Source: Candidatus Bathyarchaeia archaeon | GTDB lineage: Archaea > Thermoproteota > Bathyarchaeia > Bathyarchaeales > Bathycorpusculaceae | NCBI GenBank assembly: GCA_038728085.1 | Contig: JAVYUU010000003.1 | Span: forward strand, 124,001 to 188,000 | DNA length: 64,000 nt | Direction: 5' to 3' | Shown: positions 10,058-14,473 of the stretch, piece by piece | Layout of the letters: the number at the start of each line of letters is the position of its first letter | Position numbering within the stretch: position 1 is the stretch's first letter | The notes under the pieces: generated by a model | What the model was told of the DNA's origin: nothing | The model's input: the letters and a program-made list of their open reading frames with translations, nothing else | Database searches by the model: none | Program-made: the position numbers and the translations under genes

Positions 10058-10633
10058 ATGGCGTATAAATATATTGCAGAAGCTTGGAAAAAGCCGGAAG
10101 AATCCTACGTTGAAGAGCTGATGCGTCAGAGGCTTGTAGAGTGGCGGAAGCAGCCCGCAGTGATTCGTATAGACAAGCCGACACGCTTGGATAGGGCTAG
10201 GAAGCTTGGCTACAAGGCTAAACAAGGTTTTGTGGTGGTTCGTGTCCGAGTGCGACGTGGTGGACTGCGCAAGCAGCGTCCAAGATCTGGGAGAAGACCA
10301 AAAAGGATGGGTGTTAGAAAATACAAGCCCGCCAAAAGTTTGAGGCTTATAGCTGAAGAACGCGCTGCAAGAAAGTTTCCAAATCTTGAGGTTTTAAACT
10401 CATATTGGGTTGGCGAAGACGGCCGCTACAAGTGGTTTGAAGTGATAATGGTTGACCCCAATCATCCAGCCATAAAATCTGACAAGGACATTAACTGGAT
10501 TTGCCAGAAACAGCACAAGGGACGCGTCTTCAGAGGATTAACAAGTGCGGGCAAAAAGGTTAGGGGACTGCGAAAGAAAGGCCGAGGAGCAGAAAAAGTT
10601 AGACCAAGCAGAAAAGCGGCTACAGAGGAGTAA
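10058..10633 (+). CDS. rpl15e: 50S ribosomal protein L15e
   Basis: A 191-residue, strongly basic protein matching the archaeal/eukaryal L15e family. The N-terminal [20 protein letters not shown] and the [14 protein letters not shown] stretch are typical. It is the first gene of a cluster with rpl13e, a COG1325 RNA-binding protein and two RNase P proteins, a known archaeal arrangement. A long GGTGAGGTGA ribosome binding site precedes the ATG. Confidence 0.96.
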
Positions 10634-11374: not shown

Positions 11375-12123
11375 AACGCCGTTTCGTCGACCTACATCTG
11401 CAACCAAACCTAGGCGACGCCGAACAGACCAGAAGCATGCTGATAAAGGCTGCTGAGTTAGGCTACCGTTTGGTGGCAGTGCCGCTTCCAATGGCTTCTA
11501 TGGAGAGCTTCGCCAAAAAACTAATGGCGATGTGCCATGAGGCGAAAATTGATTTCGCATCTCGCCTTGACTTGAAGCCAAAAACGCCTAGAGAACTGCT
11601 ACATCAGCTTAGAAAATTCAGGAGAAGAGTTGAGGTAATTGCCGTGGCTTGTGAATCAAAGGATGTTGCACGGCAAGCCGCAAAGGATCATAGAGTGGAT
11701 ATCCTGAATTTTCCAGCTATAGATCCACGTAGGAGGTTTTTTGATAGGGCTGAAGCTGAGCTTGCCTCAGGCAGCACCTCAGCACTTGAGATAGACCTGA
11801 AACCAATTTTAACATTAAAGGGCCCCGTTAGAATAAGGCTTTTAGCAACTCTTAGGAGGGAGATAGCAATAGCTGAAGATTACCACGTGCCAATTGTAAT
11901 TTCAAGCGGCGCGACAAATCCTTTACAGATGCGGAAACCCATGGAGATGGCGGCTTTAGCCTCGCTATTCGACCTGGACAAGCCCACAGCGCTAGATGCT
12001 ATCTCTAAAATACCCCTTGCCATAGTCGGAAGGAATAGGGAGAAACTTAGTTCAAACTTTGTTGCACCGGGCATCCGCATAATACGTATGGGAAGAGATT
12101 GCCCCCATGAAGGAAAAAATTAG
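11371..12123 (+). CDS. rnp3: ribonuclease P protein component 3 (Rpp30)
   Basis: A 250-residue TIM-barrel-like protein. The opening FVDLHLQPN, the VDILNFPA strand and the late segment with the SSGATNPLQMRKP loop are typical of archaeal Rpp30. Rpp30 pairs with Pop5 to support the catalytic domain of RNase P RNA in tRNA 5' maturation. It overlaps the COG1325 gene by four bases and pop5 by 17, so the three are cotranslated. Confidence 0.92.
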   Translation: MKRRFVDLHLQPNLGDAEQTRSMLIKAAELGYRLVAVPLPMASMESFAKKLMAMCHEAKIDFASRLDLKPKTPRELLHQLRKFRRRVEVIAVACESKDVARQAAKDHRVDILNFPAIDPRRRFFDRAEAELASGSTSALEIDLKPILTLKGPVRIRLLATLRREIAIAEDYHVPIVISSGATNPLQMRKPMEMAALASLFDLDKPTALDAISKIPLAIVGRNREKLSSNFVAPGIRIIRMGRDCPHEGKN

Positions 12124-12442
12124 ACGCAGATATCTAGCATTAAAAATCGATTCAGACCAAAGATTCAACCAGAAGGAGTTTATGGACGCAGTTTGGGAGG
12201 CCATTTTAAAGCTTTATGGGGAATATGGCGCCAGCAGAATGAATCTTGCACTCATAGACTATGACACAGAGAAAGGACTGGCCATAACCCGTGTTACTCA
12301 CACCGAAATCGAGAAATTCAGAGCCGCCATAGCATCCATAACGGAAATAGCTGCAAAACCAGCGGCGGTGCACGTTCTGAGGATCTCTGGAACTCTAAAA
12401 GCACTTCAAAGAAACGCCAAAAGGCTTAGCGTGAAACCATAA
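12107..12442 (+). CDS. rnp2: ribonuclease P protein component 2 (Pop5)
   Basis: A 111-residue protein with the RRYLALKI opening and the ferredoxin-like alpha/beta pattern of Pop5. It is encoded directly after, and overlapping, its known heterodimer partner Rpp30. Many archaea continue this operon with proteasome alpha and exosome genes; here it ends, and a candidate guide RNA follows 33 bases later. Confidence 0.9.
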   Translation: MKEKIRRRYLALKIDSDQRFNQKEFMDAVWEAILKLYGEYGASRMNLALIDYDTEKGLAITRVTHTEIEKFRAAIASITEIAAKPAAVHVLRISGTLKALQRNAKRLSVKP

Positions 12443-12475
12443 CGCATTAATTGTGTAAGTAAAGTTTCTATTACT

Positions 12476-12538
12476 GGGGGATGATGTAGCCGTCCCAGTC
12501 TGACAGATGCAATGAGGAACTCATGACGGGCAGACCCC
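12476..12538 (+). ncRNA. candidate box C/D guide RNA
   Basis: A 63-base unit has every expected part in order. It starts with a GGGGG stem strand, then box C ATGATGT (12481-12487), a 12-base guide (12488-12499), box D' CTGA (12500-12503), a short spacer, box C' ATGAGGA (12512-12518), a second 12-base guide (12519-12530), box D CAGA (12531-12534) and a closing CCCC. C, C' and D each differ from consensus at one position, while the tandem G/A bases of the kink-turn are kept. The first guide can pair with the conserved ACUGGGGCGG of the 23S rRNA P-loop. It may be processed from read-through of the RNase P operon, since no clear promoter of its own is visible. Confidence 0.6.
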
Positions 12539-12552
12539 ATTCTCTGGATCAT

Positions 12553-13242
12553 TTAGAGGCGGAGTTTCGCGTCCCTTTCCCTTTTTCTTTTCAATCCAAA
12601 GGAAACCGCCAAAATCATCCCCATAATGAAGCCGCCTATGTGCGCCCAATAGGCTATGTCACTGCCCACGTCAAATAATCCGTAAAGCCACTGAAGCAGA
12701 AACCAGAACCCCAAAAACAGAACTGCTGGAATGGGCAGTATAAAATAGCCTATCCACGTCAAAATTTTCGCTTTGGGAAACAACACGAAATAGGCGCCTA
12801 AAACTCCAGATATCGCCCCCGAAGCACCCACAACCGGAGTGTTGAAGTCTCCCGGATAAGTTAAGCCAAGATATAGGCTGGCTATGTGAGCGATGGCCGC
12901 TGCTAATCCGCATGTAATGTAGAGAATTAGGTAGCTTCCGTGACCGAAGATATCTTCAACGTTGTCTCCGAATATGTATAGGAAGAGCATGTTGCCAAGC
13001 AGATGCCACCAGTCGGCATGCATGAACATGGATGAAAACAGCGTGTAAAGTCTCTCTCCATGCACGATCTCCTGGGGAATCATGACAAACTTGTCCTGAA
13101 TCTGGCTGGCAACTCTCGACGAGAGGAAAATTTCCTTTGCGGACAACCAGTAGACGAGAAATATGATTATGTTGGCGATTAGCAGCATACGATTTACATG
13201 AGGTGTCCTCAGTGGGCGATTTAAGTCTTTAAGTGGAAGCAC
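12553..13242 (-). CDS. rhomboid family intramembrane serine protease
   Basis: A 229-residue protein with six hydrophobic segments. The catalytic Ser is in GASG (Ser near residue 141) and the catalytic His in YWAHIGGF (near 201). The loop motif HADWWHLLGNM before the second half, which carries His and Asn residues supporting the oxyanion hole, is intact. It cleaves transmembrane proteins; the substrate is not indicated. It is transcribed alone. Confidence 0.92.
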   Translation of the reverse strand: MLPLKDLNRPLRTPHVNRMLLIANIIIFLVYWLSAKEIFLSSRVASQIQDKFVMIPQEIVHGERLYTLFSSMFMHADWWHLLGNMLFLYIFGDNVEDIFGHGSYLILYITCGLAAAIAHIASLYLGLTYPGDFNTPVVGASGAISGVLGAYFVLFPKAKILTWIGYFILPIPAVLFLGFWFLLQWLYGLFDVGSDIAYWAHIGGFIMGMILAVSFGLKRKRERDAKLRL

Positions 13243-13765: not shown

Positions 13766-13839
13766 TGGGCCGGGCCGGATTTGAACCGGCGACCTTCGCC
13801 GCGTGAGGGCGACGTCCTAGCCAGCTAGACTACCGGCCC
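13766..13839 (-). tRNA. tRNA-Val (anticodon CAC)
   Basis: A 74-base cloverleaf read on the minus strand. The acceptor stem GGGCCGG pairs with CCGGCCC, the anticodon stem TCGCC/GGCGA encloses loop CTCACGC, giving anticodon CAC, and the T arm is GCCGG-TTCAAAT-CCGGC. The discriminator is A and no CCA is encoded. There is no intron. Confidence 0.95.
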
Positions 13840-14399: not shown

Positions 14400-14473
14400 G
14401 CCGAGGTAGCTCAGCCTGGGAGAGCGCCCGGCTGAAGACCGGGTTGTCGCCGGTTCAAATCCGGCCCTCGGCA
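14400..14473 (+). tRNA. tRNA-Phe (anticodon GAA)
   Basis: A 74-base cloverleaf. The acceptor stem GCCGAGG pairs with CCTCGGC, the anticodon stem CCCGG/CCGGG encloses loop CTGAAGA, so the anticodon is GAA, and the T arm is GCCGG-TTCAAAT-CCGGC. The discriminator is A. No CCA is encoded and no intron is present. An AT-rich stretch with TTTAAT lies just upstream. Confidence 0.96.

Follow-up and report, generated by a model that had tools for sequence, protein, structure and literature searches.

On comparative sequence evidence, the 63-base element at 12476 to 12538 on the + strand of the window (the whole 64-kb stretch of DNA that was analyzed) is a real archaeal box C/D guide RNA gene, conserved in about half of the sampled Bathyarchaeia. 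It is highly likely to be an independently transcribed double-guide sRNA whose two targets lie in 23S rRNA, at nucleotides that we take to be the equivalents of Escherichia coli G2251 and U2593. The boxes, their order, the two 12-base guides, and the GGGG/CCCC stem described in the initial annotation were all located at the positions given there, in the arrangement GGGG G ATGATGT AGCCGTCCCAGT CTGA CAGATGCA ATGAGGA ACTCATGACGGG CAGA CCCC. The closing stem pairs GGGG (12476–12479) with CCCC (12535–12538), and its 5′ arm is followed by the k-turn loop base G12480 and by box C, ATGATGT (12481–12487; ATGATGA in some relatives). The D′ guide, AGCCGTCCCAGT (12488–12499), targets the 23S P-loop and precedes box D′, CTGA (12500–12503; CCGA in one large group). 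A C′/D′ loop linker, CAGATGCA (12504–12511), which is variable in sequence and in length (3 to 16 nt in relatives), separates box D′ from box C′, ATGAGGA (12512–12518). The D guide, ACTCATGACGGG (12519–12530), targets 23S helix 93 and runs into a noncanonical box D, CAGA (12531–12534). The GA of boxes D′, C′, and D is invariant among relatives.

Order and spacing fit the archaeal box C/D consensus (RUGAUGA for C and C′, CUGA for D and D′, order C-D′-C′-D), with box D one base off, and each guide falls within the usual 10 to 12 nt, pairs with rRNA over 10 bases with one wobble, and selects a target by the N+5 rule. A regular expression describing this entire anatomy, composed post hoc with the match already seen, matched once in the 64-kb window and in none of 60 locally shuffled copies. 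In an Rfam search of the element nothing exceeded its cut-off, and the best matches were all C/D snoRNA families. The best of these over the whole element, snoPyro_CD (RF00095; 18.7 bits versus a gathering threshold of 45), shares the box order and a GGG/CCC closing stem but has unrelated guides. A hairpin between box C′ and the D guide (AUGAG/CUCAU) is also visible, yet it is missing where the D guide has decayed and was set aside as a structure.

The case for the sRNA rests on conservation and covariation, since complementarity alone is modest evidence. All four genomes of the genus carry it, and its 63 to 65 bases are much better conserved than the surrounding spacer; in the three genus relatives the element is nearly identical base for base, whereas the spacer is far more variable. 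A covariance model built from the four genus sequences matched 70 of the 91 family genomes and, in the class as a whole, 140 of 257 genomes and 57 of 109 genera, a count whose weakest matches may include a few other C/D RNAs. Ninety-four matches were read, 90 of which were parsed automatically. Two or three copies on different contigs were present in G018 (L030, L101), G033 (L042, L100), and G153 (L072, L102), which may be true duplications or assembly redundancy. On contig C69 of G018, the sRNA gene (11982–12045) lies on the same strand as a 23S gene, about 1.3 kb from its helix 93 site (13352).

The initial annotation had named conservation of the boxes in relatives as a check, and the assignment to the box C/D class was strongly supported by it. 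Across 33 distinct box/stem combinations, the sheared G·A and A·G pairs of both motifs (C/D and C′/D′) are invariant, as are positions 3 and 4 (GA) of box C. The G at box C position 6 pairs with the C at box D position 1 in 33/33; the equivalent C′6–D′1 pair, which shows covariation, is present in 32/33. Three of the four closing-stem base pairs are kept in all 33 combinations, and the outermost one is kept in 26; G-C, A-U, and U-A versions occur, among them compensatory arms such as TTGA/TCAA, TTTA/TAAA, and TGGA/TCCA. Unlike other archaeal box C/D sRNAs, most homologues here carry CAGA as box D; this is the form in most families, with CGGA in two sister species and one further genome, CTGA in families f18, f19, and most of f5, and CCGA in f10 and f17. 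Box C position 5 covaries with box D position 2, giving 26 standard pairs of 33 (mostly U-A, G-U, and G-C) versus 15 expected from shuffles, figures that are descriptive because the expectation ignores relatedness. The archaeal C/D k-turn studied in PMC5689011 has a U:U pair at 3b:3n. On the basis of the covariation, we therefore read the CAGA box D as exchanging this U:U pair for U-A, with the k-turn core predicted to be kept.

A TATA-like element, ATTAATT (12446–12452, +), lies 24 to 30 bases upstream of the first stem base. In 85 homologous loci the A+T content is 92 to 95% at −28 to −25 versus about 55% around it, positions −34/−33 are A-rich, and the TATA-like peak persists at loci with different flanking genes. 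These features are consistent with the sRNA having its own promoter; a survey covering six archaea found an element of this kind at only about 20% of C/D genes (PMC7994747). The location after RNase P protein genes was confirmed: the gene immediately upstream encodes Rpp14/Pop5 (12107–12442, +; Pfam PF01900, E 4.8e-20), and the RNase P p30 gene (PF01876) is also upstream. The Rpp14/Pop5 context is kept in close relatives and lost in others. Downstream is a convergent gene for a rhomboid-family protease (12553–13242, −; Pfam PF01694, E 2.1e-34). That the element is a chance resemblance, or a cis-acting part of its flanking genes, seems to us next to impossible. Such a reading could point to complementarity not being rare in itself, as 55 of 1000 shuffled D′ guides and 19 of 1000 shuffled D guides found an equally good 10-base site in 16S plus 23S rRNA; it is opposed by the class-wide conservation in differing gene neighborhoods, the compensatory stem changes, and the separate TATA element. 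The 1.43-Mb assembly also encodes the protein partners of a guide RNA, L7Ae, Nop5, and fibrillarin: the genes for fibrillarin and Nop5 are neighbors on contig C2, and the genome has two genes of the L7Ae family.

The D′ guide very probably directs methylation of the 23S P-loop. This genome's own P-loop reads GCUGGGGCGGCA at 2387–2398 of the 23S rRNA, and comparison of the guide with it, as the initial annotation had suggested, gave pairing over 11 bases by guide positions 2 to 12, with wobbles at positions 12 and 6. The ten pairs of guide positions 2 to 11 with 23S 2388–2397 designate G2391 by the N+5 rule. We take G2391 to be the equivalent of E. coli G2251, the E. coli numbering here being set by known landmarks. 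All ten P-loop pairs are retained in 80 of 80 twelve-nt homologue guides, and positions 1 and 12 drift; the proposal that the first guide addresses the G2251 equivalent is thereby strongly supported. Ten conserved pairs with drifting ends match the limit of at most 10 nt of substrate used by C/D guides (reported by Yang 2016, as cited in PMC7089733). The paired stretch of the P-loop was identical in the ten 23S sequences read, and covariation with the D′ guide is therefore not to be expected. A second candidate site for this guide, an 8-base run at 23S 2359, 28 nt upstream of the P-loop, was rejected, its sequence not being conserved in relatives. Of 80 homologues, 79 have U at position 6 of the D′ guide, even though a C there would make the better pair; in both guides U at position 6 faces a 23S G, a wobble in the identical register.

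The second guide had been assigned to the 16S decoding region, and this part of the initial annotation did not hold. Against the genome's own 16S sequence, CCCGUCGCUCC, the D guide forms a 7-base run that includes a wobble and then meets mismatches, short of the 9 to 10 pairs sought in helix 44. A target in helix 44 near U1406 is thus very improbable; the CCCGUC of the 16S does pair with the 3′ half of the guide, but guide position 12, the partner of the first C, is free to be A, G, T, or C in relatives. The best site lies instead in the genome's own 23S at 2733–2742, CCGUCGUGAG, in helix 93, where guide positions 2 to 11 pair over 10 bases with one wobble and the N+5 nucleotide is U2736. This residue is presumably E. 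coli U2593, again in numbering set by known landmarks. The sequence comparisons support reassignment of the second guide to helix 93 as a better predicted target than the 16S.

Two further observations tie the D guide to helix 93. Positions 1 and 12 are its most variable, as in the D′ guide, and 9 to 10 helix 93 pairs are kept in most 12-nt homologues. In addition, the equivalent of E. coli U2596 is C in one f19 genome (G212) and in six f10 genomes, and guide position 5 is G in f19 and f10, where others have A. Guides of f17 (G203) and f18 g87 (G204/G205) also carry G at position 5, and a C at the U2596 position of their 23S is accordingly predicted. The 23S has U at this site in 74 genomes, and the guide base is A in the U families wherever the guide is intact. 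One exception was seen, G196, which has C at the helix 93 site yet the A version of the guide; in f15 and f27 a C at the U2596 site occurs, but no sRNA homologue was found. A short 23S tree places f10 with f19, so that their guide-target covariation may reflect a single event. In the f10 genomes (L084–L089, e.g., G109, G103, and G110), both guides are about 13 nt long and contain one extra base, A or in some D guides another base, at the same register in each, base nine counted from box D or D′ (AGCC-A-GTCCCAG and CTC-A-GCGACGG); in both duplexes this base would form a bulge.

Several genera have a degenerate D guide, 10 to 14 nt long, beside an unchanged D′ guide. A single RNA thus displays relaxed and constrained guides together, and a molecule with one constrained guide and one free to decay offers a natural experiment on guide selection. 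The same decay could mean that a genuine C/D sRNA is effectively single-guide, with only the P-loop guide methylating, the C/D half serving mainly as a terminal k-turn, and the D guide an ancestral remnant. The departure of box D from CUGA in most homologues would also fit. We regard this reading as unlikely, though worth keeping in view, given that most 12-nt D guides hold their helix 93 pairs with variation concentrated at the ends, that the D guide covaries with the 23S, and that a like D guide recurs in sRNAs of Asgard and Thermoprotei. At one locus, L080 (G180), the reverse combination was observed: the helix 93 D guide and the CAGA box are kept and the D′ guide is different (AACCGAAAAAC).

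For a double-guide sRNA, the reading we prefer, L7Ae would bind the C/D k-turn and the C′/D′ motif of the transcript, after which Nop5 and fibrillarin would join. Each guide would form a 10-base duplex with 23S domain V; for 2′-O-methylation, the D′ guide would position G2391 in the P-loop and the D guide U2736 in helix 93. We infer transcription, RNP assembly, and both modifications from the RNA anatomy, the conserved promoter element, the 10-base pairing, the covariation, and the enzyme genes, all of which are present in the sequences themselves. Both target nucleotides are at the P side of the peptidyl transferase center. The usual target criterion, nine consecutive Watson–Crick pairs (PMC4644070), is reached by neither guide because of the internal U·G wobble at guide position 6. 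Such wobbles would ease release, and this might suit a chaperone role in which the RNA keeps the P-loop and helix 93 together in nascent 23S rRNA, with methylation secondary. About 345 nt separate the two targets in the genome's own 23S, but both are P-side elements of the catalytic center, and a chaperone role has been proposed for similar double guides (PMC4644070). We nonetheless judge it improbable as the main role: the 10-base limit, the 12-nt guide spacing, and the N+5 geometry are needs of methylation that would be superfluous for chaperoning, and several genera retain the D′ guide only.

Outside the class, the data come from a single scan of the GTDB collection for an exact pattern, which returned at least 18 archaeal loci of other or unnamed groups together with a bacterial set. 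At least nine of the 18 archaeal loci listed combine the P-loop D′ guide with a helix 93-type D guide; among the matches listed, these two-guide loci occur in Asgard archaea (Jordarchaeia and Baldrarchaeia) and in Thermoprotei (Pyrodictium and Acidilobaceae). The C′ and D part was absent from all 14 bacterial matches examined among those listed. Also among the listed matches, Terraquivivens, Diapherotrites, and Micrarchaeota combine the P-loop guide with another second guide, namely CGGAAGAGCCGAG in L178, L199, and L161 (Terraquivivens and an uncultured archaeon) and a GGTAACT-type D guide in L183, L185, and L188 (Diapherotrites and Micrarchaeota). The association of the P-loop guide with other D guides suggests partner swapping. 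The two-guide loci outside the class are known from the sRNA sequence alone and could reflect common descent or convergence. We propose only tentatively, and with some doubt, that the sRNA with the P-loop guide at D′ and the helix 93 guide at D predates the split of Bathyarchaeia, Thermoprotei, and Asgard. If it does, this would be among the oldest traceable guide RNAs, and RNA-guided Gm2251 would be ancestral on the line to eukaryotic U31/snR67.

In length, boxes, 12-nt guides, k-turn pairs, N+5 geometry, 23S domain V targets, and the presence of two guides, the element resembles the archaeal box C/D sRNAs described in PMC7994747 and PMC4644070. According to the same sources, archaeal guides are poorly conserved, with no site common to all seven surveyed species; the guide pair here, in contrast, is conserved class-wide and present beyond the class. 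PMC4644070 reports one case in which both guides are common to several species, the crenarchaeal Tte sR114, Pca sR28, and Sac sR115, but those guides have different targets (A512/G491 in 16S helix 18) and are reported there from a few Crenarchaeota. As the same paper also lists G2251 as a predicted sRNA target in three archaeal species, both the kind of RNA and the prediction of this target are already known; the unusual feature is how deeply a single guide pair is conserved. Because archaeal C/D sRNAs are portrayed in published surveys as fast-changing, a class-wide, possibly older, guide RNA would be a useful marker.

The G2251-equivalent residue is methylated in bacteria and mitochondria by proteins and in eukaryotes through snoRNAs (PMC7600485). 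Bacterial RlmB and mitochondrial MRM1/Pet56 act on the same nucleotide as the predicted D′ target without a guide RNA (PMC7600485). In another domain of life, yeast snR67 and human U31 guide methylation of the equivalent residue (PMC7600485, PMC11121408); the other residue lost in a triple deletion that includes snR67 is Um2724, not the U2593 equivalent. For an archaeal sRNA-guided route to G2251, the present comparison adds support beyond complementarity, drawn from a large class that is mostly uncultured, and the guide pair also occurs in Asgard. Elsewhere in the window, the segment 9995–10039, a short way upstream of the eL15 gene (10058–10633), matches the Rfam eL15-Euryarchaeota leader (RF03144, 40.9 bits), a family named for Euryarchaeota and matched here in a Bathyarchaeia genome, and two tRNA genes, at 13766–13839 (−) and 14400–14473 (+), lie about 560 bases apart.
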